Below are positions 9,019 through 62,780 of a stretch of DNA of 64,000 bases, piece by piece (positions within the stretch are counted from its first letter, which is position 1; the number at the start of each line of letters is the position of its first letter). Source of the DNA: Lathyrus oleraceus (taxonomy: Eukaryota; Streptophyta; Magnoliopsida; Fabales; Fabaceae); assembly GCF_024323335.1 (NCBI RefSeq), contig NC_066581.1:442271816-442335815 (forward strand), read 5' to 3'. Below the pieces are notes generated by a model. That model worked only from the letters and a program-made list of their open reading frames with translations. It was not told the origin of the DNA and ran no database searches. Made by a program: the position numbers and the translations under genes.

Positions 9019-9037
9019 TAGCGACTCTGCTGGGGAC
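9019..9037 (+). other. Primer-binding site of E1 (tRNA-Arg type)
   Basis: TAGCGACTCTGCTGGGGAC begins two bases after the LTR end. It differs at one base from TGGCGACTCTGCTGGGGAC in N, and is complementary to a tRNA 3' end TCCCCAGCAGAGTCGCCA. The second base (A for G) would weaken pairing with the tRNA terminus. Confidence 0.85.
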
Positions 9038-19069: not shown

Positions 19070-19282
19070 AACTGGGAACCCGAATGGATGAGAGCAACGA
19101 CTGTCAGACCTTCAGGGTAAACAGGGATTGAATACCAAAGAACCGTAGAAATTTGCACTCTGCGGGGATCCAAGAAAGGAAAATTCACCAACGGAAGCTT
19201 CCACTGGGATCTGATATTTATTACTGGGGATTTTGATTTTTTCTCAAAGGTACAGTCACATCCGGACATCGAAAGATGATGA

Positions 19283-20790: not shown

Positions 20791-22140
20791 GATCAAAGGT
20801 CGCGACAGGGAGCAGACAGGAAGGAACACCAAGGATACCGGGTTGTAGGCACAAAATAGGTGACCGACCAAAGCGTGAATTGGTTTGAGTTCCAAAACAC
20901 TCATCATCCTGAAGAGGGCTAGAAAAGCAATCTTGTTAGAGGATGGACATTCGATTCCACAAGGAATACGAACCTTACTTAGTTAGGGAAACAAACAAAG
21001 GGTTCAACCAAAGAGCGCATGAGATATATTATCTATAGCCGTCAAAACGTAGATAATATACTCGCATGGAAGATTATCCATAACCGGTTTGTAGGTTGCT
21101 AAATGGATAAATCGACCAAAATCGTGAATTGGTGTGTGTTCCAAAACACTCATCATCCTGAAGAGAGCGAAAGCAAACTTGTTAAAGGATGGACATTCGA
21201 TTCCACAAGGAATACGAATCTTACTCAACTGGGAAGGACAACACTTCGACCAAAGAGCGCATGAGATATATCATCTATAGCCGTCAAAACATAGATAATA
21301 TACTCGCATGGAAGATTATCCATAACCGGGTTGTAGGTTGTTAAATGGACAAATCAACCGAAGAAGAAAGGCATCGGGATATCGAGACTAGGTATGCAAA
21401 GATGACCAATCAAAAGGGGAAACCACAAACATTACCAGCAAACGGTGAATGAAAGAGGACCCACTGAGGATAAAACTGGCTTACTCGGAGCAATTATCCA
21501 AAGGAAGGGGAGGACCCGCTGGGGATAAAGTTGCTTAACCAAAGCAAATATCCGAAAGGAGGAAAGAAGTATCAATACCAAAACGGGATAATGATAACTA
21601 CAAAGAGGGGATTACATCTACCGGTTCGTCGGTAGAAAACCACGGAACAGCAACCGTCATCGACTAGGATGAGCACAAAGGGTTAACTCCACAAAGGGGA
21701 GAACAGAGGATTCACATCTACCGTTTAGTAGGTAGAAGACCACAAAGATAGGACTTACAACTACCAGTTCGTAGGTAGAAGCCACCAAATTCCGCTGAGG
21801 ATAAGATGAATAAGTGCCGGTTAGTGAGTAACTATTCATTTATACCACAGGGAGGCACAAGAGACAGCCTCAAGGAAGCCAGTTTAGGATCGATCCAAAA
21901 AGGCAGACTGAATCAAGACTCAACCTAATGAGGAAAGAACTCAATAGGGAAAACCCATCCCGTTATGTGTGTAGGGAGGGAACGGAAACAACCGTCATCC
22001 ACGAGGATATAACTCAGTGGGGAGTGCCGAAGGAAATGACAGACACTTTCTGCCTAAGGGGTCGACTCTATATGGAGAGATCAGACACACCCACATCTGC
22101 TTGTGGAATCGATCCAAGCTTGCAAGATGCTACCAATTGT
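20791..22140 (-). repeat. N 3' UTR, duplicated larger hairpins
   Basis: A segment near 21016-21115 recurs at 21257-21350 (period about 241 bp). Copy one has an 11-bp perfect stem (21025-21035 with 21050-21060); copy two has a single mismatch. Further on are TCTACCG-GTTCGT-CGGTAGA (21617-21636) and two relatives near 21718 and 21763 with related loops. No coding region is supported. Confidence 0.7.
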
Positions 22141-22940
22141 GTGGGGAGTAACATTGTTGGGGATACCCGCTCAACTAAGGAGTCACTTGTTGGGAAAACA
22201 CCTCTCTACCCTGCTGGGGAACCCAATTCTGAAATCAATCCAATGGCGCGATGCTAAACTCTTTCCGACAATGGATATGTTTGCAATGCTAATGCATGAG
22301 TTTTTTTTTAGCACAATGCCCCATGATCATGGAAATGCTACACACTAATGATGCAATATGCTATGCTTATCTAAATGATGAATGCATAAAAACACATCTC
22401 CTCCAGAGACAACCCCGGGGAGCTCTAGGAACTATGCTGAGGATTTCATTACCACGTCAATTTCCACCCTGCTGGGGAAAGACAACCCTTGCTGGGGATG
22501 ACCTCCATCGAACCCGAACTGCTTGGGGATTACCCTGCTAAGGGAGAACACCAATGCTTATCTCTCATGGGGATAATTTCACCGGACCCGATCCGCTTGG
22601 GGACCTTGCTGGGGGAAAACCATCAACACAACCTCTGCTGGGAGATCCACTAGGGGAAAACACTCCACACCCTGATGGGGAAATGCATAACTCTGTTGGG
22701 GAAAGGCCTACACCACTCTGCTGAGGAAATAATATACTAGGCCACACTGGCGATAGACATCCACAACCCCGCCGGGGGCAAGCGTTCACGACCACGCTGG
22801 GGATACATCCTTAACCCTTAGGAACAAATCTACCCATCGACACTTCCACTGGGGATATGGCAACCTTCAGGCTCGCTGAGGAGACACCGATCTCGAATCT
22901 GCTAGGGAGATAATACTCTCAAACCCACCGGGGGATACAG
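22141..22940 (-). repeat. N 3' UTR array of PBS-complementary motifs
   Basis: Plus-strand CTGCTGGGGA and close variants recur roughly every 30-60 bp (for example near 22206, 22470, 22489, 22605 and 22795). On N's sense strand they read TCCCCAGCAG, which is the tRNA 3'-end sequence and so complementary to N's own PBS. Intervening sequence is not conserved and no gene is seen. Confidence 0.75.
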
Positions 22941-24007
22941 CTTATTTATCACAGAACACCTGTCGATTCGTCGAACATCGGCATTCATCACCCAACCACA
23001 GTGTCGATTTTCCACTTTTGTGAGCTCCCAGACTCGTCTGGACTTTTGTGATTCATCACCTTGTATTCACGACTCCTCCGTACTCCACGGAGATTGAACT
23101 CCTGGGATTCATACAAACTTTCCAGTCCTCAGACTTTGAAGAGTCTTCTTGATTAATATTCAGGATCGTCGTCATTCTTTCGTCGTCCTTTCACCGTTCT
23201 TCTATCCCTTGCCCCTGATTGGACTCTGCAGGGATCTTTTGTCAAAATGTTACCCATCACAAACTGCAAGTGAATGAAGATTTCTAACAGCACCTGCACA
23301 AGAGATCGTTAGATAAAAGCGTGCCCCAGGCGTGCCAACATTTCAACACCTAGGTCACTCCAACTTCCGAATAAGATTTCCAGATTTCAATCTTATAAGC
23401 ATGCATCGGAAGGGATCTCCATGTTTCAAAATGCAAATATTCTTTATCAAACTAAACAGATGTTTTTGCAATCAAAGCGGTAATGAAAACAAAAAACAAA
23501 ATTTATTTGACTGAACATGCATTTTATTGACAGAAACAAAAAGGTGGCTCACAACCGAGCAACACACAGGAAGCAAACCTGAAAAGAGGTGATTGCGCAC
23601 AAAAGGAAAAAATCTATCCTAATGGCAAAGTAAAACCGTGATCTCATCGAGTTCCAACTCGGTTACACCCCATATGTCCTCAAGACTTTCCGCACTTTCT
23701 ATCTTCTGAATAAGACGCTTCCGACCGATCTCTGTCGGAGATTATCCATGATGTGTTAACCAAAATATCAACGATTATGCTGGACGCAGTTGTTTCTTTC
23801 AATCCCTCTTTTGCCTGGACCGCCCTTTCGGGTTTTCAGTCCACCGGGATACCCTTTTTTTCCCAAGTCGCCCTTGTGGGGTTTTCGACTTGCCGGGTGT
23901 ACAAATTCTTTTCATTCTTTATCCCTAACTTTTGCTCGAACCTTTTCCTTTTTTTCGGTTCGCCGGGATGCCCTTTTTTGCTTGGACTATTTTGTCCTTT
24001 TCGTCCA
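22941..24007 (-). other. N 3' UTR proximal part with polyadenylation signal
   Basis: Non-coding. AATAAA on the minus strand at 23523-23528 corresponds to the AATAAA in the E1 3' UTR (38094-38099). Motifs near 23810-24030 match the E1 block 37641-37820 just after integrase. No ORF on either strand has recognisable similarity. Confidence 0.6.
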
Positions 24008-28552: not shown

Positions 28553-28570
28553 TCCCCAGCAGAGTCGCCA
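28553..28570 (-). other. Primer-binding site of N
   Basis: Minus-strand TGGCGACTCTGCTGGGGA starts two bases (GC) after the LTR end at 28573. It is a perfect 18-base complement of the tRNA end TCCCCAGCAGAGTCGCCA. Confidence 0.88.
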
Positions 28571-34175: not shown

Positions 34176-37100
34176 AATTGATCTGGCGGATTCCATTAAA
34201 AACAGTTCTGTTATGGCTCAGTATGACTTTGATGATCCCATTTAGCAGGCCGAAAAGGAGAGTGAAGAAGATTGTGAACTCCCCAAAGAATTGGCCAGAC
34301 TATTGTAACAGGAGGAAAGGGTCATTCAACCTCATTAGGAAGAGTTGGATGTCATTAACCTTGGTACTGAGGACGCAAAGAAGAAGATCAAGTTAGGGGC
34401 TGCTTTAGAGGAAAAGGTCAAGAGAGGGCTGATTGAAATGCTGCAGGAATATGTGGATGTATTCGCATGGTCGTATCAAGATATGCCTGGTTTGGATACA
34501 TATATTGTGGTGCACAGGCTACCTCTCAGAGCAGATTGTCCTTCGGTAAAGTAGAAGCTTCGTAGAACTAGTCCTGATATGGCTGTCAAGATCAAAGAGG
34601 AGGTTCAGAAACAGTTGGATGCAGGTTTTCTAGCAGTTACCAATTATCCCCCTTGGGTGGCCAACATCGTACCCGTGCCGAAGAAGGATGGTAAAGTCAG
34701 GATGTGTGTTGATTACCGAGATTTAAACAGAGCCAGCCTGAAAGATGACTTCCCATTACCTCACATTGACGTATTGGTTGATAACACTGCTCAGTCCTCG
34801 GTTTTCTCTTTCATGGATGGATTTTCTGGCTATAATCAGATCAAGATGGCGCCAGAAGACATGGAGAAGACGACATTCATTACACCTTGGGGCATGTTCT
34901 GTTATAAGGTAATGCCATTTGGGTTGAAGAACGCCGGTGCTACCTACCAAAGAGCTATGACGACTCTCTTTCATGACATGATGCACAAAGAAATTGAAGT
35001 GTACGTGGATGATATGATTGCGAAGTCTCAGACAGAAGAGGAGAACTTGGTAAACTTGCAAAAGTTGTTTGAAAGACTGAGAAAGTTCAAACTGAGGCTG
35101 AATCCAAACAAGTGTACATTTGGAGTGAGATCTGGAAAGCTGTTAGGTTTCACTGTCAGTGACAAAGGGATTGAGGTTGATCCAGCGAAAGTAAAAGCTA
35201 TTCAAGAAATGCCTGAACCAAGAACGGAAAACCAGGTTCGTGGGTTTTTAGGGAGGCTGAACTACATTGCGCGGTTCATATCTCACCTAAAGCTACGTGC
35301 GAACCGATATTTAAATTGCTAAGAAAATATCAAGCAATCAGGTGGAACGATGATTGTCAAAAATCTTTTGATAAGACAAAAGAATATTTGCAGAAACCTC
35401 CAATTCTTATACCTCCGGTTCCTGGGAGGCCTCTAATAATGTACCTTTCAGTAATAGAGAATTCGATGGGGTGTGTATTGGGACAGCATGACGAGTCTGG
35501 TCGAAAAGAGCATGCAATATACTACCTTAGCAAAAAGTTTACCGACTGTGAAACAAGATATTCGCTGCTCGAGAAAACTTGTTGCGCTTTGGCATGGGCT
35601 GCTCGCCGACTAAGACAGTATATGTTGAACCATACTACCTTGTTGATTTCTAAGATGGACCCAGTAAAGTATATCTTTGAAAATCCGGCTCTTACCGGAC
35701 GAGTGGCTCGTTGGCAGATGGTTTTGACAGAGTATGATATCCAGTACACGTCGCAAAAGGCCATCAAGGGTAGTATTCTGTCTAATTACCTTGCCGAGCA
35801 ACCAATTGATGACTATCAGCCGATGATGTTTGAATTCCCCGATGAAGATATCATGTACTTAAAGATGAAAGATTGTGAAGAGCCTTTTATCGAGGAAGGA
35901 CCGGATCCCGATGACAAGTGGACACTGATGTTTGATGGGGTGGTAAATGTGAATGGAAATGGTGTTGGGGCAGTACTCATTAATCCTAAAGGTGCACACA
36001 TACCTTTTTCCACCAGATTGACTTTTGAAGTAACCAATAACAAAGCTGAGTACGAGGCCTGTATCATGGGGATTGAGGAAGCCATCGATCTAAGGATCAA
36101 AACTCTGGACATTCATGGAGATTTTGCTCTAGTGATTAACCAAGTCAATGGAGACTGGAATACTCATCAGCCGCATTTGATTCCTTATAGAGATTACACC
36201 AAAAGGATCCTGACTTTCTTCAAGACAGTAAAGTTGTATCATGTACCCCGAGATGAAAATCAAATGGCTGATGCCTTAGCCACATTATCTTCCATGATTA
36301 AAGTTCATTGGCAGAATCATGTGCCACACGTTGCTGTGAATCGACTTGAGAGGCCTGCGTATGCGTTTGCAGCCGAGTCTGTTATTGATGAGAAGCCGTG
36401 GTTTTATGATATTAAGAATTTCCTCAAAAGCCAAGAGTATCCTGAAGGAGCGTCAAAGAATGACAAGAAGACACTGAGAAGGCTAGCTGGAAGCTTTTAC
36501 TTGAACAAGGATGATGTGTTGTACAAGAGGAACTTTGACATGGTTCTGCTCAGATGCATGGTTAGACACAAAGCAGACGTGTTAATGCAGGAAGTGCACG
36601 AGGGATCTTTCGGTACCCATGCTGGTGGTCATGCAATGGCCAAGAAATTGTTAAGAGCCGGTTATTACTGGATGACCATGGAATCTGATTGTTTCAAATA
36701 CGCTCGGAAGTGCCACAAATGTCAGATCTATGCAGATAAAGTGCATGTACCACCAAACCCTTTGAATATTATGAGATCTCCTTGGCTATTCGCGATGTGG
36801 GCCATCGATATGATTGGAAAGATTGAACCTACTGCTTCTAATGGACATCGCTTCATCCTAGTCGCGATTGATTACTTTACCAAGTGGGTGGAAGCAGCTT
36901 CCTATGCCAATGTTACCAGACAAGTGGTTGCTCGATTCATTAAGATAGAAATTATCTGTCGTTATGGGGTTCCTGAGAGAATTATCACTGATAATGGTTT
37001 GAATCTCAATAACAAGATGATGAAGGAGCTTTGCAAAGACTTTAAAATCGAACACCGCAATTCTTCTCCTTACAGACCAAAGATGAATGATGTTGTAGAG

Positions 37101-37640
37101 GCGGGAAACAAGAACATTAAGAAGATTGTGCAAAAGATGGTTGTGACGTACAAGGATTGACATGAGATGTTGCCTTTCTCTTTGCATGGGTATCGTACCT
37201 CAGTGCGTATGTCAACCGGGGCAACTCCGTTTTCACTTGTGTATGGCATGGAGGCAGTCCTGCCAGTAGAAGTTGAAATCCCTTCTTTGAGGGTAATGAT
37301 GGATGTAAAACTTGACGAGGCTGAGTGGGTTCAAGCCAGGTTTGATGAGTTAAATTTAATTGAGGAAACGCGATTAGCGGCTGTGTGCCATGGACAGCTA
37401 TATCAGAGAAGGATGAAGAAGGCTTTTGATCAGAAAGTGCATCCTCGAAGCTATCAGATAGGTGACTTAGTTTTGAAGAGGATCCTTCCTCCCGTTACAG
37501 ATAACAGGGGCAAGTGGGCTCCGAATTATGAAGGTCTGTATGTTGTTAAAAAGGTCTTTTTTGGGGGAGCCTTGATGCTTACAACTATGGATGGTGAAGA
37601 TTTTCCGTCTCCTGTGAATTCAGATGTAGTAAAAAAATAA
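34176..37640 (+). pseudogene. pol of E1: RT, RNase H, second RNase H, integrase
   Basis: Linker, then RT (about 34560-35290) with YVDD at 35002-35013; the RT-linked RNase H (about 35330-35790); a second, archaeal/plant-like RNase H (about 35910-36300) with FDG, NNKAEYEA, HGD and MADA acidic residues; then integrase with the HHCC knuckle (about 36590-36730), catalytic core (AIDMIGK, TDNG, VVEAGNK; about 36780-37110), and a C-terminal tail ending at TAA 37638-37640. Two RNase H domains in a row mark the Tat clade. Defects: TAG 34243-34245 and TAG 34336-34338 (both shared with E2), TAA near 34306, TAG 34552-34554, a 1-base deletion near 35289 and TGA 37158-37160. Confidence 0.9.
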
Positions 37641-39875
37641 TTCGCATAAACTGACCCGCTGGACAAAAAAAAAGAGAGTCCAGGCAAAAAAGGGCGTCCT
37701 GGCGAACCAAGAAAAAAAGAAAAGAAAAAGGTTTGGGAAAAAGTTAGGGATAAAGAATAAAAAGAAAGTAATAATATGTACACCCAGTGGATTGAAAACC
37801 TGAAAAGGTGGTCCAGGCAAAAGAGGGATTAAAGCGAAGACTACAGTCTGAGTTACCTGTACTTCATCACGTTTCAGTTTCTACCATCTTGAAGGATATG
37901 ATCGGTCCAATCACTCTTCTCAGAAGGCAAATAATTTGGGGAAAGTGAAGATCTATGAGTCATAACAGAATTGGAAATTAGTGGAATGTCGTGTTCACAT
38001 TGCCAATAGGGTAGTTTATTTTCTCTTTTGGCGAAATTACGTCTTCCTAGAATTGCTTCCTGTTGTATTCGCCTTTATAGGCCATTTTCAATCAATAAAA
38101 GTCGTTATTCAATCAAATTGCTCTCTTGTTTTTTAATTCTACTGTTTTGTTTGCAAAAAACGTCCGAATTTTTGATAAACATTGCATCTAAAAAACATGA
38201 AGGCTAGACAATGACGTGCGGAAAGATAAAACATCTGAAAATCATTTTGAATGTTGAGTACACTTGAGTATATTTTGTCCATACGATCCCATGGGGGCAT
38301 GTATGTCCTGCTGTTTTGCAGGTTACTATCTTTGATTGATGGCTAAAGCAGACGAGCCAAAGTTTGTTCGAAGGAAGACCCTGTTGTTTCAACACTGTCC
38401 AGTCGTGTAAGAAATTGGGTCGTCTAAGTCGAGTTTAGAATTTGTTTCCCCGACATGGTCGAGAGGTTGGTGTTTTCCCAACAAGTGACTCCCCAGTTGA
38501 GTTGGTTTCTCTACCGTTCCGAGAATTTCAGATCAGTGAGTATCCTCAGCAGAATTGTTGTATGTCCCCACAGAGTTGGAAGATCGAATCAGAAATGATG
38601 TGCTTAGTAAAGTGATCATTTGCTTTCCCAGCAGGAGTTTTCCTCCCTTTGCATCTTGCATGTAGTAATCATCATTTGCATTCGCATTCTCAAATCGCGT
38701 AGCATTTCCATTCAGTATGGAGCATTACGCCATAGAAAACTCAAACATATGCATGCAGCTACTCTTGGCAACATTCAGAATCGATAATCCCACTGAGATT
38801 TATTTTGTCACCAGTCCGTGAAACGAAAGCTTGATTCCCTTCCGATTTAGTCCCTAGTAAGTGTCTGCCTTATTTTGACATACGTAAGTGTCATCCTTGC
38901 GATACCGGTAAGTGTCGTGTTGATCCCCGTAAATGTTTGTGCTTTTCTTTGATGTCGGCAAACATCATCTTTCAATGTCGGTAAACGTCGAATTCCAATT
39001 GTTGGCCATCTGTAAATGGCATGTCTCGCATGGTGTCTACAAAAAATCATTATGTCAACACCCATGTGTGTCCTTTCCTTTCTTTGGTGTCGGTAAACAT
39101 CATTGTTCGATGTCGGTAAACATCAGCCGCTTGTTAACCATCGGTAAATGATTTTGTCATTTAAGATTCCCCAGCAGATTCGCTATCCGTAAATATCGAG
39201 TATTTCATTGTCTCCATCGGTAAATGGTTTCGTTTCTTAAATGTATTCTTTCCTTGGTGTCTGTAAACATCTTTATTCGATGTCGGTAAACATCGAGTTC
39301 CCTCCCAGTCATCGGTAAATGTCTGGTCTTGTTTCATTTATAAACATCTTTATTCGATGTCCGTAAACATCGAGTTCCTTCCCAGTCATCGGCAAATGTC
39401 TGGTCTTGTTTCACTTGCTCCTCCCCAGTGAAGCCGCCATCGGTAAATGGCCTCGCTTTCTTTGATATCGGTAAATATCAATTTGTTTTGAAGCCGCCAT
39501 CGGTAAATGGCCTCGCTTTCCTTGATATCAGTAAATATCAATTTGTTTTGAAGCCGCCATCGGTAAATGGCCTTGCTTTCCTTGATATCAGTAAATATCA
39601 AATTTGTTTTGAAGCCGCCATCGGTAAATGGCCTCGCTCTCCTTGATAGCGGTAAATATCAATCTGTTTTGAAGCTGCCATCGGTAAATGGCCTCGCTTT
39701 CTTTGATATCGGTAAATATCAAATCTGTTTCGAAACCGCCATCAGTTAATGGCCTCGCTTTCTCCGCTCTGTCACCTACAAAGTGCAAATTATCCGGTTC
39801 TTTTGGTATTCAATCCCTATTTACCTTGAAAGTCTGATAGTCGTTGCTTTCATCCGTTCAGGTTCACAGTTGATT
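37641..39875 (+). other. E1 3' UTR
   Basis: Long non-coding stretch. Starts with a purine-rich block holding CTGGAC/GTCCAG; AATAAA lies at 38094-38099. From about 38450 on are CCCCAG-rich motifs resembling the tRNA 3' end, best at 39168-39185. The hairpin series follows at 38876-39760. Short open frames seen here on both strands reflect the repeat and are not called. Confidence 0.8.
38876..39760 (+). repeat. E1 3' UTR mini-hairpin series with constant CGGTAA loop
   Basis: About 25-30 stem-loops, most with loop CGGTAA (variants CGGCAA, CCGTAA, CTGTAA, ACGTAA). Stems differ yet remain complementary: TGACA/TGTCA, CGATAC/GTGTCG, TGATGT/ACATCA, GCCAT/ATGGC, CCAT/ATGG, TCGATGT/ACATCGA and GATAT/ATATC. 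From 39431 on they are locked into six copies of a 60-61 bp unit, each with one GCCAT and one GATAT hairpin. Confidence 0.9.
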
Positions 39876-39888
39876 GAATAGGGGCAGC
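39876..39888 (+). other. Polypurine tract of E1
   Basis: GAATAGGGGCAGC directly before LTR2, identical to the PPT of N. Confidence 0.8.
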
Positions 39889-42626
39889 TGTAGCACCTCA
39901 AATTTCCCCCCCTCATTCATGCATTCATTTTAGGTCATTTAACATTTCATATTGCATTTCATCATGTCAATCAGAATTAGCTCTAAGAGAGTATCTTCCA
40001 GGAAGCTTGAATTCAGCTGTGAAGTCAAAAGTCAACTGTTGGTCTACTGAAGGTCAAACGGCTAGGGAATAACTTGAGTTACTTCTAACATGTTCAAATG
40101 AGGCCTATTCATAATTCGACATATTACTCTTGAAGGAACAAAGGTCTAGCGCACAGGTTACAAATTTGGAAAGATGACTTGAGCTGTCATGCTCGCTAGG
40201 CGAGCAGGATGGTTCGCCTAGCGAGCCATCAGAGTCTTAATTGTCATGCTCGCTAGGCGAACAGATCCTTCGCTAGGCGAAGCCCACGCGTTTTGAAAAT
40301 ATAACAGAAAAATCTTGGACTTGGACCTCTCTCATTTGAGTCCACATAGCCACGAAAATCAGAGTATAAATTCTGAAAATGTCATTGAGCCAAAGCCTAT
40401 TCTATTCCTATTACCCTAGAAGAGAAGAGAAGAGAGTGAACTAACTAATTCATAGCAGCCTCCACACACTGAAGAGAAAAAATTCACTCGGACTCTGAGA
40501 CTTTTCACTCTGACTCACACACTTTTCACTTCCATCTCACACAAACCCTAACATTGCTTTGCAAACCCAACCGTGCAATTCAATTTCATTTGATCTCTCC
40601 AATCAGGTTTGACTTATTCCCATTACTTTACGCTTTCAATATGAAATTCCTGAATCATGAGGTATTATGTTTGAATCCGGGAGAGTGGGTATAGTTAGGT
40701 CTTGCATGTGGGTTTAGATGTGTATGAATGTGTAGAACAATGCCTTGAATGTTTAATCAATTCGCTTCTGAGATGAATACTATAGGGTTTGGGGTTCCTG
40801 AAATCGCACTGTTATCAATGGAGACTCCAGAACCCGTAGGCATTCGCTAGCCCATCGCTAGGCGAGCTTGCAGCGAAGCTTCGCTAAGCCTTCGCTAAGC
40901 GAGACAGTAGCGATCGTGACAGTAGTTTTTTTTCTTTCTGTTTGCTCTCTAATTTGTTCTGTGTTTGTTATGACATGTTTTCAATTGCATCCGGGTACAT
41001 GTTTTAGTACGTATGTCATGTCTTGATGTGTGGATCCCTGCCCCCTGACTTTGAGTTTTGATACCCTTTTGATGCATTTATTTGACAAGAGGTTTAGGCC
41101 TCCTATCCTTGGTTGCTTTTTGTGAGCTTTTTGTGAACTTTAATAGCACGATTCATGTGGTTGCTACGATCCTTCTGTTTGGTGCAACTCTTGATTACAC
41201 CCCATTTTGTTATTCTAACATGTTTGTTGAGTTTTTTGTGAGGGCTCACATAACTTTTGAAGAGATAGCTTGCTTGGTATTCCACTTTATTTTTGGGATA
41301 CCATTTGGAGATTTATTCCGATTACTTTGCTGACTTGTTTTCTTTGATGGTGCTAGCTTGAGAGATCTCCGGGTTTCTTATTTCTTTAGTTGCTGTTACT
41401 TCGGATCTTTATCCGTGTGGTAGATCTCTTGATCCCTTTTACATCTTTCCCGTATTTTACCGATTTCTTAGCTGGAAGACCTCAACAGGAGGCAATGTTT
41501 TCTTTTGTTTGTTTACTTTTGTGCCCAAAGACCTCCAAGAAGAGGGACCAGTGCTAAAGACCTCCATGAAGATGCAATTGACGGATAAAAGGGATTAGTA
41601 GTCAATCCCTCGTTATTCAGTGTGTCGTTCTCTATGCTCTCACCTTTCTGAATCCCCGCTTTTTGTCATGAGCTCACCCTGTCCAGGGTTAAGAGCTATG
41701 AGGTCTTATCCTCATTACCCTTTTGATCTGCTCACCCTGACGTTCAATGTCAGTGGTTAAGAGCCCATTTGATTGCCCTTCCATGGCTTATTTGTTGAGG
41801 TTGATATGAACCCTCTTGACTAAATCCCTACCCATGTATGTTGAGCCCCTTGTTGGCGTGTTTACTTTATGCATGTTTGTTTTGTATGGTGTGATCGTCT
41901 CCCCATAGTATTTCTAGGCTTCGTATAGTCTCTCGTTTGCATGTCAATTAAGGTAGCACGGTTCCTTCGTCTAGGACTTCGTTTTGCATGAGCATTTCTA
42001 AAACACAAACAGACTCATTGATTTTTCTTCTCCTAAGAACACGTTAACTCCTTCTACTACAGGCGAGTATGTCTCCAAAGGTCGAGCATCCGGTAGATTG
42101 CGTAGTAACATCGTTCATCTAAAAACGCAAAACAAACAAATAGGTTAGCCGAACTACGTTTTGCTCTGATTCTCATTCCAGATGAGATACGTAGGCATAA
42201 GACGCGATGTCTTAGCGAGCACACTCCTCTTTAACCCATAGGTAGCCGAGCTACGAAGACTCTGATTCTCATATTCAGATGAGATACGTATGCAGTGGAT
42301 GCGACATCCGTGCGAGTCATTTTATTTTGACCCCTCTTTTAGTAAATAGTACATTAGATAAGCCCACACCCTTTAGACAAGAACAACAAGAGTGGGTCCC
42401 ATAGAGTACTACGAATGCGTAAGGGTGCTAATACCTTCCCTTTGCATAACCGACTCCCGAACCCAAGATTTGGTGGCGAGACCTTGTCTTTTCCTTTCAT
42501 TTTTCCAGGTTTACTTCGAGCGTTTCCTTTCCCTCCTTTGGGATAAATAATGCATAGTGGCGACTCTTCTATCATTGCTTTTTTCGCCGGTTGTTTTTTT
42601 TTCGCATTCCTTTTTTCAGGTTGCGA
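39889..42626 (+). repeat. LTR2: 3' LTR of E1 and 5' LTR of E2
   Basis: About 2,738 bp, start TGTAGCACCTCAAATTTCC. It follows the E1 PPT and runs straight into the E2 leader, so one LTR serves both elements. The final CA and the next eight bases are lost in a 10-bp deletion between two GCGA copies (compare 9011-9026). It keeps the palindrome clusters and the TATA-like box at 40365-40372. Confidence 0.9.
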
Positions 42627-43521
42627 CTCTGTTGGGGACCTGGTTACCCTAAGCGAGTCCCTCCTAGCTTTTGTAGTTTTCTTGTTTGTTGGGTGTTTAT
42701 TCTTTTGTACAATTATTTATTTACCTGTTTTACCTTATTGCATTCATGTACATATGTCTGCTGTATCTGTGGGTTCTGTTGGGTTGTTTGTTTGTTGGGG
42801 TGGGATGTTCTATGAGAGATAAGCCCACTACCCAGGCTTGAGCGTACACACAGGTTTTAGAGTGGATAATCATGAGGTTTGCGTGGCATGCTGCTACGTT
42901 AAGTCGTTCATGAAGACCCACATTCCAGACGAGGTTCCTTTTGGATATATTCTGTCCTATGGGTGTTCCATAACGACAGATGTTTCTCTAGAAATCGTTG
43001 ACTCTGGTGACCATTTCCCGAGAACTCAGTCGAGGCCTCTCCTCCGAGACGCGTTTATGTTAGCTCTGGTGGGCGCATTCTCGCTGCTCAATCCGAGGAC
43101 CCCGAGGCTGGGAACTTGCTATTAGGATGTCCTGTTGAGGGGAGTCAGTGGAGGTCTTTTGTCTCGTAATAATCCCAAACCTTCATTGGTAAACGTATTA
43201 TTCGACTGAAGGGAAAGAAACTGACAAACTTCTGTTCTTAGAACCTACCAGTGAGGGGCGGGCTAAATTCAGGAAACCTTAACCTTCAACCAACCCGATT
43301 TTATGGAGCAGAGCTTTGATCTTGTATTATATTCTTCAGTGGGTTTTCTCTTCAGACAGTGTGACCCAACAGTTGTTCAAGCAGATACAACAATCTTGAT
43401 TTCCATGTCACTGCATTACATCACATCATTTTGCATTCATATCATTTAATACATGTTTATCTATTTCTAGGGGTTTATATCTTCTTCTTGATTCCGGTCG
43501 GGGTTCTCTGGTTCTCCTAAG
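42627..43521 (+). other. E2 PBS remnant and leader
   Basis: The PBS is cut to CTCTGTTGGGGACC (42627-42640) by the 10-bp deletion, so tRNA priming should fail. The leader is otherwise as in E1, plus the 43174-43521 segment missing from E1. TTTATCTATTTCTAG|GGG (about 43456-43472) resembles a splice acceptor about 50 bp before the ORF1 ATG. Confidence 0.7.
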
Positions 43522-44427
43522 ATGGATATTGGCAGAAAGAGACATGTCGCCTACAAGTTTCCTGTTGTTTGTTTGGATCCCATTCAGCAGCTGATGAAGT
43601 TAATGGATCATGGTTCTCTAGAAAGATTCCGGAAGGATTACAGTTTGATTCTAAGTTTCGTCACAGTTCTCTCCAAAGATCAACACGATGCCCTCTTTAC
43701 ACTGCTGCAGTTCTATGACCCTCCCTTGAGGGTTTTCACGTTCCCAGATTATATTTTGGTCCCTACTTTGGAGGAGGTTGCTAGTTTTCTCAGAGTTCCT
43801 ATCAAGCCGCAGTTGCTATTCTATAGTTCCGAGTTTCTGCCCGATCTCAACATGGTTGCTTCAGCCACATATTTGGGGAAATCAGTCTTGAAGGCTAATA
43901 TGTGTCAGAAGGGAGGAGTTAATGGTTTTCATCTAAGTTTCTTACTGGGAGAAGCAAAGAAGAGGCTTGAAGATGGTGACCAGAGGGGTTTCAATGCTGT
44001 GTTGGCTCTTTGTGTGTATGGGATTGTCCTGTTCCCTAATGTGGCGAAATTTGTGGACGTAGACGCCATACGCCTCTTCGTGTTGGGAAATCCAGTGCCG
44101 ACCTTGTTGGGAGATTTCTTTCATTCAGTGCATCACAGGAATGAGAATAGAAGGGGAGGATTGGTGAATTGTTGCGCGCCTTTGTTTTATAAGTGGTTCA
44201 GTTCCCACCTACCCAAGTCAGGAGCGTTCGTTGATGTAAAAAACTCGTTGAGTTGGTTAAAGAGACTGATGGGGATAAGAGCTAAAGATATTTCTTGGTG
44301 GTCAGACCAGAGCTTGCTTCGGGCAGATATTATTCATAGTTGTGGGAACTTCCCGAATGTACCATTGGTAGGAAGAAGAGGAAGTATCAACTACAATCCT
44401 TCTCTAGCAGTCAGACAGTTTAGATAT
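43522..44427 (+). pseudogene. ORF1 of E2, segment 1 (residues 1-302)
   Basis: Starts with ATG in AAGATGGATATTGG (MDIGRKRHVAYKF). It holds most of the globular domain conserved among legume Ogre ORF1 proteins, with FPDYILVPTLEEVASFL and LGNPVPTLLGDFF. The ORF was complete before the guests arrived: 906+236+709 bp gives 617 codons without an internal stop. The role of ORF1 is unknown; its absence from most Ty3/gypsy elements suggests an accessory function. The solo LTR at 44428 adds a premature TGA. Confidence 0.8.
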
Positions 44428-46167
44428 TGAGATTCTGGCATAGTCAGAATTCAGATGTTCTACTCCAAGTAATGACATCTAATCCAACTTTGTTACTAAT
44501 ACAGCAAGATAATTATACAAATTAAAACCCAGTACTGATAAGCACACATTCACAGATGTCACGACATCTGCTACTATATCACCATAGAATGGAAGAACAC
44601 CCAGTTCTGTCACTTTCGATGTCACACGAGTTGTTATGACATCCAATTCTGCGCAGACAAGAATTAAGCAGAACTTAAAAGGTAAGTGCAGTAAATAACA
44701 CAAGTAATTGTTAACCCAGTTCGGTGCAACATAACCTACGTCTGGGGGCATACCAAGCCAGGAAGAAGATCCACTATCAGCAGTATTAATTCAGAGTTAA
44801 ACTCCCCCGTTTACATCTCTTCACTTAATCCCTACCCAATGCAATCTATACCTAGGAACTCCTAGATAGAAACCTCCAGTTTCCATTCCTATCACTACAA
44901 ATACAATGTAATGCTAAACAACTTGAACTTGCTTCACAGCTTCATTCAAGACCATAATCACTCTTGCCTACAGGCTTTGAGTTACAAATACTCTCATCTT
45001 TGACCACTGAGAAACACATGGTAACCTTCCCACAGATTGGGAGGTTTACCTCATACACACCCCTAAATTTTCATTCTATGAGGCTCACAAAAACTAGGTT
45101 ACAATATGCTATTTATAACCTAATCACCCAACTGAATTTGGGCCTTCAGAAATCGCAGCAAACTTGTTCTTTGCTGTTACAAAGTCAGCAGAAACTTTCT
45201 GCTACAAACAAGGTCTTCAAACTTTTAGTTCCTAAAATATCTCCATATTTAGTTCCTAAAATATCTCCATATTTAGTTCCTAAAATATCTCCATATTTAG
45301 TTCCTAAAATATCTCCAGACCTCCACAAATAATGCCATATAGGATTCTAACTAATTTCCACATATTAGTGTGCTAACAAATAGGCTATTTGTTAGGTTCC
45401 TTAATTGTAGCTCAGTTGTTAGTTTCCTGGATTTTAGATCAGCTGTTGGATTCCCGAAGAATAGCCTGAGAAAAATCCTGAAACAGAAAAACTAAACAAC
45501 CTACAATTTAGCATATGCTGTCAGGAATGAATGTCACAACATTCAGTTTGACGTCCAGAACATTAACCATATGCTAAGTCTGCTTTTCCTGAAAACAGAC
45601 TGTACAATTTGCTGTACTGTACAGAACCAATCTGTCCATACTTCAGTATCAGCGTACAATAATAAATGTCAAAACCTCCAATTTGACATTCACACATAGA
45701 GCCTTACATCAGGTCTGTTATCCTCTTGATAAGCAGACTGAGTTGTATACTGAAATGTAGCAGAAAACCAATCTGCCTATTGTTCAGTAAATGCTGTCAA
45801 TGAATGTCATACATCCAGTTTGACATCCAGACAATAGGCCTTATGCCAGGTCTGTTATCCTCTTGATAAACAGTCTGAAACTAAATGCTGAGTTATAGAA
45901 GAACACCCACTGTTCTATTCCTCAGTATTTGCTGACAGGGATGAATATCATAACATCCAGTTTGACATTCAATAAATCCTGTATTAGCTAAACCTGCAGT
46001 ACACTACTCAGAGTGTCATGACATCAGCCAAGACATCAGAGTACATCTAGATATTCTAACATACAATGCAGTCAAACAAACATCTCCACAGCATGTCATG
46101 ACATCAGTCAAGACATTGGAATCCAGCTAGTGTTTTACCATACAATGCAGCCAATTAAACATCTACA
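44428..46167 (-). mobile_element. Solo LTR, SIRE/Maximus-like (Ty1/copia), 1,740 bp
   Basis: Flanked by GATAT duplications (44423-44427 and 46168-46172) with TG..CA ends. On the minus strand it begins TGTAGATGTTTAATTGG and ends GACTATGCCAGAATCTCA. The segment reverse-complementing 44700-44770 (CCAGACGTAGGTTATG and the following ACCGAACTGGGT) is typical of legume SIRE/Maximus LTRs as I recall them. No internal region is present, so it is a recombination remnant. Family is less certain than the solo-LTR call. Confidence 0.8.
45224..45322. repeat. 24-bp tandem repeat, about 4 copies
   Basis: Unit TTAGTTCCTAAAATATCTCC plus ATAT inside the copia-type solo LTR. It gives a repetitive open frame (VPKISPYL) with no meaning as a gene. 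Confidence 0.85.
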
Positions 46168-51888: not shown

Positions 51889-51893
51889 CCACC

Positions 51894-52602
51894 TACTCCT
51901 GAGCAGTCAACCATGGTGAACCGAGAAGAGTATGACACATTGAAGAATGCCATGGAGGAACTTCAAACTGAAAACTCAGAGTTAAGTGTGAAGCTGCAAG
52001 ACTGTATGCATCAATTCCATGAGGCGGAATATCAGAAGGGGGAAGCCGTCAGATTACAAGAGGAAGCAGAGAGGAAATTAGTTGTGGAGGTGGACTTCTT
52101 TAGGGAGACAGACAAAGCCCTGGGATCATCCAGTTCTGAGTTGAGGCGAGTCAAACAGCAGTTAATAGATGCTCATGGTAAGTTAGCTGGTTGGCAAGAG
52201 CAATGGGGTACATTTGCAGCTTCTAGGAAGGTAAAAGAGGAGGAGATGGTGGCCGAATTGACTGGTCAGATGGAGAAGTTGAAGATTTTGCTGAAGGAGA
52301 AGAACAATGAGCTTCTGTGCGCCCGTTCAACCAATGGTTATATCACAGATCAACTCAACAAAGCTCAAAGACAGATTGAGGAACTCATAGTGCTGGCAGG
52401 TTTGAAGAAATCCAGACTTGAAGAGGTACTCGGAGAAGATGACGGGAATTACTACAGAGAGCACCTCAACGAGTTGGATGGAGTTATTCACAGGAGGAAT
52501 CTGCTTATCCGGCGTTTGACAGAATCTCCAGATCATCCTGACATAGTGGCACTACTGGCTGAAGTGAGGAGCAGTCCTTATGGGTTGTATACAGGAGGCT
52601 GA
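51894..52602 (+). pseudogene. ORF1 of E2, segment 3 (coiled coil)
   Basis: Open to TGA 52600-52602. Rich in Glu, Lys, Gln and Leu with heptad spacing (MEELQTENSELSVKLQDCMH and onward to about 52420), which predicts a long coiled coil and hence self-association. Ends SSPYGLYTGG. Intact where E1 has two stops. Confidence 0.85.
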
Positions 52603-52988
52603 TTCTTGATTTTTGTTTCCTCTCTTTACTTATTGTATTGTAGTGATGATCCACAGGCTTGTTGTGGAAATCCTTTTTTGATGAACTATTGGCTAAGACC
52701 TTTCCCTTCTTGAACCCATTTATATGATGGTTTTCCTTATTGCATCTTGATCTCAGAAGTTTATCCATAACTCGGTCTTCTTGCACTTTCTGTCGGATGT
52801 GAGACCGGAATCAAGGGGGTAGAATACCCGTTGGAATTGATAAACATGTCATTGCATTTACATATTCATTTGCATATCTTGCATAACAGGTACCGCTGCG
52901 GTGTTCTTATATTATTTGGTGTTCACTAGCAGGATAACTGATTTCAGGCATTCATCGGTACGGTACCCGTAGAAACCAACAAAGAGTA
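52603..52988 (+). other. ORF1-gag spacer of E2
   Basis: Nearly identical to the E1 spacer, including the acceptor-like TTGCATAACAG and CACTAGCAG. No gene. Confidence 0.5.
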
Positions 52989-55900
52989 ATGGAAAGCTTT
53001 CAAGTAGATCTAGCAGAGATGAGGACCAACATGGCCCAATTCATGAGTATAATGCAAGGGCTAGTGAAAGGGAAAGAGGAACTCCGAGCCTTGGTCCAGA
53101 GACAAGAAACTGTGATTCCCCCTGTCGGTCAGAATCCGCCAGAAGGTACCCCTGTCGATGACGCTGCTGTTACCAACCCTGTCAACAACCATGCTGCTAG
53201 TGACAAATTGCGTGGTATTAGAATCAATGGACAACCCATCATTACAAAGGCTACTGATGCTCGAGCGGCACGTGCTCCAGTTCACCATCCTTCTTATTTG
53301 GTTGACAAGCAAGAAGATATGTTCACCATTCCCAGTTATGATGATGAATTTGGAAAGGTGGAAGAAAGAGATAGAAAGGTTGACGCCCTTGCTGAAAAGA
53401 TTCGCGCCATGGAGTGCCAGAATTCTTTGGGCTTTGATGTTACTAATATGGGTCTAGTTGATGGTTTAAGGATCCCGTACAAGTTCAGAGCGCCCTCTTT
53501 CGACAAGTACAATGGCACTTCTTGTCCCCGAACTCATGTGCAAGCTTACTACCGGAAGATATCCGCTTATACTGATGATGAAAAGATATGGATGTACTTT
53601 TTCCAAGACAGCTTGTCTGAAGCATCTATGGATTGGTACATGGACTTGAGAAAAGAATCTGTCAGAAGCTGGAGAGAGTTAGGTGAAGCCTTTCTGAGGC
53701 AGTACAAGCATAACATGGACATGGCTCCGAGCAGAACCCAGTTGCAGAGTTTGTGTCAAAAGACTGGTGAGAGTTTCAAGGAATATGCCCAGAGGTGGCG
53801 CAAACTAGCTGCGAGAGTACAACCTCCGATGTTGGAGAGAGAATTGACAGATATGTTCATTGGAACCCTGCAAGGTGTTTTCATGGATCGTATGGGAAGT
53901 TTCCCGTTTGGTAGTTTTTCGGATGTTGTGATTTGTGGAGAAAGAACTGAAAGTCTTATCAAAGCGGGAAAAATCCAAGACCCTGGTTCTTCAAGTTCTT
54001 CAAGTGCTAAGAAACCATTTTCAGGAGCACCCACAAGGAGAGAGGGTGAGACAAATGCTATACATAATCAGAGAAATGGAAACAGAGGACAACAATACCG
54101 CCAAGCTGCTGTTCTGACTATTCCAGCAACCCAACCTCAACAACAACAAAGAGGACAACCACAACAACAACAGCAACGCCAATCCCAACCAAGACAAAGA
54201 ATGCCAGATCGTCATTTTGATCCGTTGCCAATGACTTATGCTGAGTTACTCCCTGAACTACTCAGATTAAAGTTTGTTGAACTTTGCACTATGGCTCCAT
54301 TAACAAGGATTCCCACTGGTTATGATGCTAATGTCCGTTGTGATTTTCATTCTGGTGCGCCAGGCCACCACATCGAGAATTTTCGGGCTTTTCACCATAA
54401 AGTCCAAGACTTGATCGATGCCAAGACGATTAACTTTGCTCCTACTCCGAATGTGATGAATAATCCTATGCCTCATCATGGAGGGCCCAGAGTAAACAGT
54501 GTGGAAGATGGGGAAAATTTGGACTTGGTAGTCGATGTTAATGACGTTCAGACTTCGTTGTTTATGGTGAAGGAACGTCTACTTAGAGTGGGAGTATTCC
54601 CGGGATGTGACAAAAATTGTTCAGATTGTGGTAATCATGAAAACGGCTGTGTGAAATTGAAAGAAGGTATCCATGAATTGATGAATGAAGGTTGTTTACA
54701 GTTTGATCGCGTAGTGAAAGACCGTGGAGAGGTATCAGCTGTTACCATTTACTTTACACCGTCAGAAGGTCCTGCACGTGCTCCAAGAACTATTAGTGCG
54801 CCTGTGACTATTGGTACTCCTGTGATCGTAGCTGTGCCCGTGACCATATCTGCTCCGGTGACTCTTGGTGTTCCCGTGATTAATGCTCTAGTAACTATCA
54901 GTACCCCTACCACCATTGCTACTTCTAGTGGAAGAATTTATGAGAATAGTAGAGCAATTCCGTGGCAATATGACAATGCTTCTTGCAGAAATAGAAGACC
55001 TGAGAATCAGACCAGATCAGTAAATCAGACTCCAGTAACAGTTGGTTCGGCTGTGGGTAATGTGGGAGGACCCGGAGGATTTACGAGAAGTGGTTGTTTG
55101 TTTGCACCATAGGTTCCGAAGGATAACAATGCTGAGACTCTTGCTAGAACAAAAGGAAAACAAGTTGTCGTTGAAGAAGAACCAGTGCGAAAGGAAGTGT
55201 CTGAGAGTTCTTTTGAGAAGGACGTGGAGGAATTCATGAGAATTATCAAGAAAAGTGATTACAAGATCGTGGATCAGTTGAACCAGACACCGTCAAAAAT
55301 CTCTATTCTCTCTCTGTTAATGTGTTCCGAGGCACATCGTAACGCCCTGTTGAAAATGTTGAATATGGATTATGTGCCCCAAGAGATTTCCGTTAACCAG
55401 CTCGAAGGTGTTATTGCAAATGTTAACACGAGACATGGTTTGGGATTCACGGATCTGGACTTGACACCTGAGGGTCGCAATAACAATAGAGCTCTGCATA
55501 TCACGATGGAATGCAAAGGCGCCGTTTTGTCGCATGTTTTGGTTGATACCGGTTCTTCTTTGAATGTGCTGCCCAAAAAGGCTCTGAGTAAGCTTGATGC
55601 CGAAGGGGTTGTTCTCACACCAAGTGATCTTGTTGTCCGTGCTTTTGATGGATCCAAGCGATCAGTTTTTGGTGAAGTCACGTTGCCTGTGAAGATCGGC
55701 CCGGAAGTGTTTAATATTGTCTTCTATGTGATGGATATTCAACCAACATATAGTTTTCTGTTGGGGCGTCCCTGGATACATGGAGCCGGAGCAGTTTCTT
55801 CGACTCTCCACCAAAAGCTAAAATATGTGTGGGATGGTCAGGTTGTGACCGTGTGTGGCGAAGAGGACATCTTTGTGAGCCATTTATCCTCCTTTAAATA

Positions 55901-56328
55901 TGTGGAGATGGATGGCGAAATTCATGAAACTCTATGTCAAGCTTTTGAGACTGTCAGTATTGAGAAGGTGGCTTTTGTTGAACAGAAGAAACCAGGTACC
56001 TCGATTGCGTCCTATAAACAAGCTTTGGAGGTCAGTCATTCAGGTAACATGGAAGGCTGGGCAAGATGATTGATGTGCCCGTAAAAGAAGACATGTTTGA
56101 CATTGGTTATTAGCCTTTTCAATCATCAGAGCAGGGTGTCCAGGATCAGAAAGGGCCGTGTACTTTCACTAGTGCTGGATTGATGAATCATGGGGATTTC
56201 TTCTCAACAGACAATGAAGATGGTGACAATGATTGTGATATGGATAATTGGGTGCGCCCGTGTGCTCCAGGGGAGAAAATCAACAACTGGACCGTTGAAG
56301 AAATAGTCCAAGTTACTCTTCAGACAGA
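52989..56328 (+). pseudogene. gag-protease of E2 (exon 1)
   Basis: ATG at 52989 (MESFQVDLAEMRTNMAQFM). Capsid domain about 53500-53920, Gln-rich linker, zinc knuckle about 54340-54380 where the last Cys is Phe (HIENF; E1 has HIENC), Val/Ile/Pro/Thr repeat about 54790-54920, and protease DTG at 55545-55553. The frame is open for 707 codons to TAG 55110-55112 (E1 keeps CAG), then again to a 1-base loss near 56060 (GGCTGGGC against GGTTGGGGC). A further TAG lies near 56112. The usual product would be a Gag-Pro polyprotein processed by its own protease; here it cannot be complete. Confidence 0.88.
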
Positions 56329-56586
56329 GTAATTTTCTTTTATTTTGCGTTTTGCATGAAAGCCCTACGCTCTGCCCAAGGCGTAGTGGTTCATTGTAGG
56401 GCCACATCATGTTTTGAATTTTCAATGATTATCATCAATAAAGGAGGTTTTGCAATCAAATTTGTGCTCACTGTCTTTATGTTTTTATTACTTTCATTTT
56501 CAAAACCATAAAAATGGCAATATTTTTTTCTCTGTGACTTCCTTGAACTCTTTTCTAAAATAAAGCATGAAACATCATTCGTGCAG
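56329..56586 (+). other. Pro/RT intron of E2 (258 bp)
   Basis: Same donor (AGA|GTAATT), acceptor (GTGCAG|AATTG) and length as in E1. Hairpin CTACGC/GCGTAG at 56365-56386. The stop TAA falls inside the donor. AATAAA is present in the same context as in E1. Confidence 0.8.
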
Positions 56587-59500
56587 AATTGATCTGGCGG
56601 ATTCCATTAAAAATAGTTGTTATGGCTCAATATGACTTTGATGATCCCATTTAGCAAGCTGAAGAGGAGAGTGAAGAAGATTGTGAACTCCCCAAAGAAT
56701 TGGCCAGATTATTGAAACAGGAGGAAAGGGTCATTCAACCTCATTAGGAAGAGTTGGATGTCATTAACCTTGGTACTAAGGACGCAAAGAAGGAGATCAA
56801 GATAGGGGCTGCTTTAGAGGAAAAGGTCAAGAGAGGGCTGATTGAAATGCTGCAGGAATATGTGGATGTATTCGCATGGTCGTATCAAGATATGCCTGGT
56901 TTGGATACAGATATTGTGGTGCACAGGCTACCTCTCAGAGAAGATTGTCCTTCGGTAAAGCAGAAGCTTCGCAGAACTAGTCCTGATATGGCTGTCAAGA
57001 TCAAAGAGGAGGTTCAGAAAAAGTTGGATGCAGGTTTTCTAGCAGTTACCAATTATCCCCCTAGGGTGGCCAACATCGTACCCGTGCCGAAAAAGGATGG
57101 TAAATTCAGGATGTGTGTTGATTATCGAGATTTAAACAGAGCCAGTCCGAAAGATGACTTCCCATTACCTCACATTGACGTATTGGTTGGTAATACTGCT
57201 CAGTCCTCGGTTTTCTCTTTCATGGATGGATTTTCTGGCTATAATCAGATCAAGAATGCGCCAGAAGACATGGAGAAGACGACATTCATTACACCTTGGG
57301 GAACGTTCTGTTATAAGGTAATGCCATTTGGGTTGAAGAACGCCGGTGCTACCTACCAAAGAGCTATGACGACTCTCTTTCATGACATGATGCACAAAGA
57401 AATTGAAGTGTACGTGGATGATATGATTGTGAAGTCTCAGACAAAAGAGGAGCACTTGGTAAACTTGCAAAAGTTGTTTGAAAGACTTAGAAAGTTCAAA
57501 CTGAGGCTGAATCCAAACAAGTGTACATTTGGAGTGAGATCTGGAAAGCTATTAGGTTTCGTTGTCAATGAGAAAGGGATTGAGGTTGATCCAGCGAAAG
57601 TAAAAGCTATTCAAGAAATGCCTGAACCAAGAACGGAAAAGCAGGTTCGTGGGTTTTTAGGGAGGCTAAACTACATTGCGCGGTTCATATCTCACCTAAC
57701 AGCTACGTGCGAACCGATATTTAAATTGCTAAGAAAAGATCAAGCAATCAGGTGGAACGATGATTCTCAAAAAGCTTTTGATAAGATAAAAGAATATTTG
57801 CAGAAACCTCTAATTCTTATACCTCCGGTTCCTGGGAGGCCTCTGATAATGTACCTTTCAGTAACAGAGAATTCGATGGGGTGTGTATTGGGACAGCATG
57901 ACGAGTCTGGTCGAAAAGAGCATGCAATATACTACCTTAGCAAAATGTTTACCGACTGTGAAACAAGATATTCGCTGCTCGAGAAAACTTGTTGCGCTTT
58001 GGCATGGGCTGCTCGCCGACTAAGACAGTATATGTTGAACCATACTACCTTGTTGATTTCTAAGATGGACCCAGTAAAGTATTTCTTTGAAAATCCGGCT
58101 CTTACCCGACGAGTGGCTCGTTGGCAGATGGTTTTGATAGAGTATGATATCTAGTACACGTCGCAAAAGGCCATCAAGGGTAGTATTATGTCTAATTACC
58201 TTGTCGAGCAACAATTGATGAGAATCAGCCAATGATGTTTGAATTCCCCGATGAAGATATCATGTACTTAAAGATGAAAGATTGTGAAGAGCCTTTTGTC
58301 GAGGAAGGACCGGATCCCGATGACAAGTGGACACTGATGTTTGATGGGGCGGTAAATGTGAATGGAAATGGTGTTGGGGCAGTACTCATTAATCCTAAAG
58401 GTGCACACATACCTTTTTCCGCCAGATTGACTTTTGAAGTAACCAATAACAAAGCTGAGTACGAGGCCTGTATCATGGGGATCGAGGAAGCCATCGATCT
58501 AAGGATCAAAACTCTGGACATTCATGGAGATTCTGCTCTAGTGATTAACCAAGTCAATGGAGACTGGAATACTCATCAGCCGCATTTGATTCCTTATAGA
58601 GATTACACCAAAAGGATCCTGACTTTCTTCAAGACAGTAAAGTTGTATCATGTACCCCGAGATGAAAATCAAATGGCTGATGCCTTATCCACATTGTCTT
58701 CCATGATTAAAGTTCATTGGCAGAATCATGTGCCACACGTTGCTGTGAATCGACTCGAGAGGCCTGCGTATGCGTTTGTAACCGAGTCTGTTATTGATGA
58801 GAAGCCATGGTTTTATGATATTAAGAATTTCCTCAAAAGCCAAGAGTATCCTGAAGGAGCGTCAAAGAATGACAAGAAGACACTGAGAAGGCTAGCTGGA
58901 AGCTTTTACTTGAACAAGGATGATGTGTTGTACAAGAGGAACTTTGACATGGTTCTGCTCAGATGCGTGGTTAGACACGAAGCATACATGTTAATGCAGG
59001 AAGTGCACGAGGGATCTTTCGGTACCCATGCTGGTGGTCATGCAATGGCCAACAAATTGTTAAGAGGCGGTTATTACTGGATGACCATGGAATCTGATTG
59101 TTTCAAATACACTCGGAAGTGCCACAAATGTCAGATCTATGTAGATAAAGTGCATGTACCACCAAACCCTCTGAATATTATGAATTCTCCTTCGCCATTC
59201 TTGATGTGGGGCATCGATATGATTGGAAAGATTGAACCTATTGCTTCTAATGGACATCGCATCATCCTAGTCGCGATTGATTACTTTACCAAGTGGGTGG
59301 AAGCAGCTTCCTATGCCAATGTCACCAGACAAGTGGTTGCTCGATTCATTAAGAAAGAAATTATCGGTCGTTATGGGGTTCCTGAGAGAATCATCACTGA
59401 TAATGGTTCGAATCTCAATAACAAGATGATGAAGGAGCTTTGCAAAGACTTTAAGATCGAACACCACAATTCTTCTCCTTACAGACCAAAGATGAATGGT

Positions 59501-62712: not shown

Positions 62713-62780
62713 CACGCTAGCGACTCCGATCACGAAACTGATTCGATCGAAGAAGATGGGGCTGGCGACTCTGCTGGGGA
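62713..62780 (+). other. E3 PBS region, duplicated
   Basis: A degenerate PBS start (GCTAGCGACTCCG, 62717-62729) follows the LTR, and a perfect TGGCGACTCTGCTGGGGA lies 50 bases further (62763-62780). The usual spacing of two bases is therefore lost for the perfect copy. Confidence 0.7.

Follow-up and report, generated by a model that had tools for sequence, protein, structure and literature searches.

Hypervariable tandem repeats are known from the 3' untranslated regions (UTRs) of Tat/Ogre LTR retrotransposons (PMC7004042, PMC3305785, PMC11963269), for example the minisatellites of soybean Gmr9/GmOgre (PMC3305785) and the arrays of Retand (PMC11963269), and in the main text of PMC7004042 they are given as the source of most satellites studied in Lathyrus sativus. 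Abnormal strand transfer was proposed earlier for these repeats (Macas et al. 2009, via PMC7004042), and the origin and function of such repeats are called unknown in the texts of PMC11963269 and PMC3305785. By term counts, 'hairpin' is absent from the main texts of all three papers, and 'palindrom' occurs 0 times in PMC7004042 and PMC3305785 and twice in PMC11963269, where it was seen in one cited title. A search by title and abstract start, with most of the subscription literature outside its scope, found no description of covarying hairpins in the 3' UTR of an LTR retrotransposon. The series of small hairpins presented here is not a product of chance and is an addition to this known kind of region.

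Nested Ogre-like elements in the window

The window, a stretch of 64,000 nucleotides from Lathyrus oleraceus, contains nested plant LTR retrotransposons, two of which are described here: E1 on the plus strand and E2 on the minus strand, inserted inside E1 and splitting it at 14284/33363. E1 starts with a 5' LTR (6210 to about 9018), whose end is adjoined by the primer binding site (PBS, 9019-9036), and continues with an ORF carrying DUF7745 (9546-10445) 5' of gag, the gag ORF (11407-12651) and the pol ORFs for RT, RNase H, a second RNase H (RVT_3) and integrase (34579-37160), all on the plus strand. Its 3' UTR extends from the end of the integrase ORF to a polypurine-like tract (37161-39888), and the 3'-side LTR starts at 39889. 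The LTRs of E2 are about 4.8 kb each, with a mutual identity of 97.1%, and its PBS is at 28553-28570 on the minus strand.

The Tat clade is distinguished by an additional RNase H (aRH), and a plant mobile domain is named for the extra ORF of 57% of Ogre elements (PMC6317226). In E1, the domain order within 35316-37160 is RT_RNaseH, RVT_3 and rve, and this second RNase H, which is probably the Tat aRH beside RT, RNase H and integrase, points to the Tat clade of Ty3/gypsy. An extra ORF ahead of gag, as in Ogre, is also present (9546-10445), and its DUF7745 could be the equivalent of the Ogre plant mobile domain. Both elements also have the tandem arrays that are known from Tat/Ogre elements in the interval from pol to the 3' LTR (39429-39762 in E1, 19304-20779 in E2). 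By its upstream ORF, domain order and long LTRs, a placement made without a tree, E1 would be an Ogre-like element of the Tat clade. No relative of the integrase-side ORF of E1 was found in viral or genome contig collections, neither of which is meant for plants.

Beyond the LTR at 39889 come a PBS-like site (42621-42638) and another DUF7745 ORF (43522-44430). E1 and a second copy (pieces at 51889-61031) appear to share one LTR, as in a tandem LTR-internal-LTR-internal arrangement. Another LTR (61031-62780), with a perfect PBS at its end (62763), interrupts the 3' UTR of the second copy at 61031, so that the hairpin region of this copy lies outside the view of the window. At the other side of the window, an ORF at 3745-4545 carries a plant mobile domain (PF10536), which is known from Ogre extra ORFs (PMC6317226).

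Hairpin series with covarying stems

A sequence-only reading of this DNA had described about 25-30 small palindromes with the loop CGGTAA, or a one-base variant of it, in the 3' UTR of E1. The series does lie there, between the end of the integrase ORF at 37160 and the LTR start at 39889, and the count agrees. CGGTAA with at most one mismatch has 26 sites in 38600-39900; the site at 38782, which is unpaired and outside the series, was excluded from all unit counts, and the other 25 (38906-39715) were retained whatever their stems. Loop-proximal pairing (Watson-Crick or G.U) was complete at five of five positions in 17 of the 25 sites and reached at least four of five in 24, the remaining one (38927) having three. 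Exact CGGTAA is present 16 times in the E1 3' UTR, compared with 0.57 expected from base composition. Selecting stems blind to the loop gave 26 non-overlapping hairpins, 17 of them with a six-base loop, and all 17 loops were within two mismatches of CGGTAA; among the other nine, which have other loop lengths, the core was present in two and the loops were unrelated in seven. An inverted CGGTAA loop (at most one mismatch) with five pairs was not found in the E1 array.

The division into an older, irregular part and a clean 60-bp array was confirmed. The older part (38876-39428, plus strand) holds 15 of the 25 sites, with varied stems (38906 to 39390). It includes a hairpin with a core one base shorter (38876-38893) and a 77-bp direct duplication (39264-39413; 1.9 copies, 95% matches) carrying two hairpin types, GATGT/ACATC and GTCAT/ATGTC. 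The tandem array (39429-39762, plus strand; 5.5 copies, 92% matches) holds the other ten sites, and each 60-bp unit has two hairpins, GCCAT/ATGGC and GATAT/ATATC.

In a scan of hairpin density, 39001-39500 ranked first and 39501-40000 third, with an LTR stretch at 62001 in second place. The matching stretches of three related LTRs were hairpin-dense too (8501-9000, z 2.9; 42001-42500, z 2.5; 62001-62500, z 4.2). Rfam 15 gave no match at gathering score in the whole window, and one sub-threshold match (39240-39314, E 0.12) was taken as chance. Matches to exact hairpin patterns, a 16-base one found in 31 viral contigs, once each, and a 14-base one with at least 120 matches, were likewise put down to chance.

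It had also been claimed that both arms change together, beyond what plain tandem duplication explains, and both statements held. When the 3' arms of the 25 units were redealt, the number of Watson-Crick pairs fell from 125 to 84.9 ± 5.9 of 150 (P ≤ 5e-5), and with the 12 distinct 5-bp arms it fell from 56 to 37.1 ± 4.2 of 72 (P ≤ 5e-5). The 25 units were then aligned together (23 distinct rows, six stem pairs) and compared with 500 shuffles, a control that ignores the relatedness of units by duplication. The stems were better paired than shuffled ones (87.7% of cells against 71.3 ± 2.4%), 30 cells were changed on both sides (10.4 ± 3.1 shuffled), and such two-sided changes were found in all six pairs (3.8 shuffled), a number reached by 5 of the 500 shuffles. 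The covariation score of 0.570 (0.284 ± 0.038 shuffled) was reached by none of the 500, and it was at most 0.175 when the partner was slid by one to three bases. Further pair types showed no excess in this alignment (10 against 11.4 shuffled). Taking the commonest pair as reference, the 17 distinct units have 28 cells with both sides changed, 24 of them Watson-Crick and 4 mismatched, and 17 cells with one side changed, 6 of them G.U and 11 mismatched. In a scan of 105 tiles for covarying arms around any loop word, the two array tiles came out on top with z 4.70 and 4.69, narrowly ahead of the third tile at 4.27 (95th percentile 4.03, median 3.15).

E2 carries an array of 94-bp tandem units on the minus strand ahead of its LTR (19262-20790; 16 units found), each unit consisting of three hairpins with the loops CGATAA, CCGTTG and CCGTTG. 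The best local match between the E1 and E2 arrays extends over 388 columns with 60% identity (E 3.9e-8, permissive scoring); TCCCAGTCATCGGTAAATGTCTGGTC in E1, for example, is aligned with TCCCATTCATCCGTTGATGTCTGGTC in E2. Judged by this alignment, the array of E2, a diverged element, is homologous to that of E1. As the E2 loops are CGATAA and CCGTTG, the loop is common within an element and different between elements, and the fixed loop that had been described stands within E1 (17/17 six-base loops near CGGTAA) and fails in E2.

Covariation was found again in 30 E2 hairpins picked by context (20 distinct rows). These comprise 28 of the 53 CCGTTG-like sites and two variant hairpins, the 25 excluded sites being parts of the CGATAA hairpin or in another context. 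In this set, 92.9% of cells were paired (86.5 ± 1.1% shuffled), 15 cells were changed on both sides (4.3 ± 2.4 shuffled), four pairs had two-sided changes (1.7 shuffled; reached by 8 of 500), and the score was 0.384 (0.247 ± 0.022 shuffled), a value that none of the 500 shuffles attained. Additional pair types were not in excess in E2 (8 against 8.0 shuffled). The looser set of all 53 CCGTTG-like sites gave P 0.012 and its 15 distinct arms P 0.21. Beyond its 94-bp unit, the E2 array has periodicities of 285 and 379 bp (19304-20777) that resemble higher-order repeats. Elsewhere in E2 (21629-21770, minus strand), three hairpins share an alike CTACC/GGTAG stem and have differing loops, which is the opposite of the E1 pattern.

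The rates of change in stems and loops, which the sequence-only reading had offered as a check, spoke for quiet stems in E1 and not clearly in E2. Across the five units and one partial unit of the E1 60-bp array, the minority fraction was lowest in stems (0.035), higher in loops (0.061) and highest in linkers (0.115), with P 0.011 for stems against linkers. In the E2 array (16 units) the fractions for stems, loops and linkers were 0.108, 0.055 and 0.137, respectively, with P 0.20 for stems against linkers, or 0.24 once two irregular units are dropped; no P was computed for the loops. The least variable part is the stems in E1 and the loops in E2. Folding was compared with 20 shuffles per strand, giving z -4.6 for the sense and -6.8 for the antisense strand of E1, and -4.3 and -3.2 for those of E2 (19900-20780). 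The E1 stem cells include 6 G.U and 4 A.C. The E2 CCGTTG hairpins have 12 G.U cells against 2 A.C (counted by eye), from few independent events, and the CGATAA set has 64 against 0, although 4 of its 20 rows do not represent that hairpin and the rest are mutual copies. The CGATAA hairpin itself has about three fixed G.U pairs.

Sequences complementary to the primer binding site

A search with the 18-base PBS, allowing up to three mismatches and with 0.04 matches expected by chance, matched at four PBS places and, on the opposite strand, at 39168-39185. This 18-mer, which is on the plus strand inside the hairpin series, is complementary to E1's own PBS at 17 of 18 bases and to the other three at 15 or 16 of 18. 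Matches to the PBS complement at 12 or more of 18 bases numbered 5 in the E1 3' UTR (on average 0.2 with shuffled motifs, none of 200 of which reached 5) and 11 in the E2 3' UTR (mean 0.4; 0 of 200), compared with 0 on the antisense controls of both elements. At 13 or more bases, E1 has only 2, reached by 2 of 200 shuffled motifs, and E2 has 8 (0 of 200).

In the E2 3' UTR upstream of the array (20791-23950, minus strand), the commonest dispersed 13-mer, found without reference to the PBS, is TCCCCAGCAGGGT, with 15 copies at up to three mismatches, and it is identical to the PBS complement at 12 of 13 bases. The stretch of the E1 3' UTR ahead of the array has no comparable dispersed word. A duplex energy with the PBS of -18 or lower was obtained for 25 of 269 overlapping E1 tiles (ten tile-shuffles: mean 3.0, largest 7), against 2 tiles on the antisense strand and 2 of 376 in pol, and for 94 of 486 E2 tiles (shuffles: mean 24.8, largest 33; antisense 11). 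At a lax threshold of -14, E1 was not raised (39 against a shuffle mean of 31.0, largest 44). The PBS complements in both 3' UTRs are above most controls and form a second signal. Such sense-strand sequences recur at 39168-39185 and 38447-38560 and, on the minus strand, at 20513 and 22163-22908.

The CCCCAGCAGGG words were tried as a further hairpin series and rejected, the exact-loop test in E2 giving P 0.13 with 21 sites. With one mismatch, P was 0.0006 for 109 sites in E2 and 0.94 for 85 sites in E1. We read these words as PBS-complementary words and do not claim them as hairpins.

The complements fit a 3' UTR that may be able to pair with the PBS, or pieces that may have been copied from the tRNA or PBS by strand transfer. 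A more speculative proposal, which we consider doubtful, is that the Ogre-like 3' UTR is a structured control region and not a set of junk repeats. In it, a loop-read, multivalent hairpin array would be combined with PBS-complementary decoys through which the RNA's 3' end could base-pair with its 5' PBS, holding back tRNA priming or circularising the genome until packaging. If true, the region would keep its folds and not its letters, with the hypervariable tandem repeats and their derived satellites as by-products.

Possible explanations and known systems

The reading that we favour, tentatively, is that the array is structured, read through its loops and kept by selection. Short stem-loops would present a common recognition loop, T-CNGTAA-A, on stems that are free to change while pairing holds, and the fold would be kept in the element RNA or in single-stranded cDNA. 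The loops could form a multivalent docking platform for a putative protein, most likely as RNA docking sites; the likeliest candidate partner would be the element's own Gag during packaging, followed by a host RNA-binding or export factor. Tandem duplication, which is usual in Tat/Ogre 3' UTRs, would alter the number of units, and single hairpins would thus be expendable while the array persists. The related hairpin set in the diverged, nested E2 suggests that the folded shape itself is kept. Low variation in E1 stems and E2 loops and the absence of an inverted CGGTAA loop weakly favour a kept structure together with a kept loop. However, the E2 stems are not clearly quieter than their linkers, the loops of E1 and E2 differ, and the antisense strand folds too, better than the sense strand in E1. 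Selection on structure, one of the two alternatives offered earlier, is supported in part, by the E2 covariation and weakly by the quiet E1 stems and E2 loops, and not by the E2 stems.

Template switching at quasipalindromes is an established mutational process (PMC7202029), and it is the main rival explanation, possible if rather unlikely, for the paired arms. Where an inverted repeat is imperfect, a polymerase engaged in reverse transcription or DNA replication would switch to the opposite arm and copy it, so that a change in one arm is carried over and the arms covary without selection; hairpins that stall the enzyme would in addition promote the strand transfers that make tandem duplications. 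Arms that match while linkers diverge are consistent with this, as are the imperfect intermediates among the 17 units (17 one-sided cells). Strand switching alone would not keep the loop word or its orientation, though duplication could, and the replacement of a single pair with its neighbours intact (GATGT/ACATC against GATAT/ATATC) is allowed by both strand switching and selection. Of the two, we consider a structure kept by selection somewhat likelier. It is improbable, but worth stating, that the paired changes have no present cause and were inherited from a few events as copies of a duplicated ancestral palindrome diverged. The units are indeed related by duplication, which the shuffle control ignores, but the two-sided changes in the 17 distinct units are 24 paired against 4 mismatched, the score of 0.570 drops to 0.175 or less when partners are slid, and E2 shows the pattern again with other stems.

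If a fold is kept, it could also serve nuclear export or splicing control of the intron-bearing element RNA and not packaging. Only some Ogre transcripts have their intron removed by splicing (PMC6317226), and mouse LTR elements make use of transport elements rich in hairpins (PMC12786077), but the window has no Rfam match, and we regard this as quite unlikely. Slightly less likely still is a fold that acts as DNA, with hairpins or cruciforms in cDNA or chromatin, for example near plus-strand priming. In its favour, folding exceeds that of shuffles on either strand, and at most about 220 bp separate the end of the array from the LTR in E1 and in E2. All loops point the same way with respect to the coding strand in both elements, which lends this DNA reading no support. 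Dimerisation had been suggested for this series; by way of kissing CGGTAA loops it is unlikely and was set aside, since CGGTAA cannot pair with itself and the exact complement, TTACCG, does not occur in the leader with ORF1, in gag or in the 3' UTR (elsewhere in E1 it is found once in the LTR and three times in pol).

Double-hairpin elements of fungal mitochondrial DNA are small hairpins with compensated stems and are mobile as single units in organelle DNA, unlike the E1 and E2 units, which keep to one UTR and one orientation. RNA viruses have multiple, dispersed packaging signals with a shared recognition motif (PMC6281560), and as described there they resemble E1 and E2 in having many stem-loops with a common motif; the stem-loops of E1 and E2 are, in contrast, clustered in one LTR-retrotransposon UTR, and any protein partner of theirs is putative. 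The RNA transport elements of mouse IAP and MusD (PMC12786077), compared here in kind and not in sequence, are also structured cis-acting RNA in LTR retrotransposons, but they are described as one fold, whereas E1 and E2 have many small repeated hairpins. If the monomers are hairpins kept for their pairing, such arrays would have a direct and testable reason to exist, and very large plant retrotransposons would have a candidate cis-acting signal for packaging, export or priming. With the Tat/Ogre 3' UTR repeats, as the main texts present them, E1 and E2 share the lineage group, the position between pol and the 3' LTR, tandem duplication and family-specific monomers, and they differ in that their monomers are hairpins with paired stem changes and that the array is homologous across two diverged elements.
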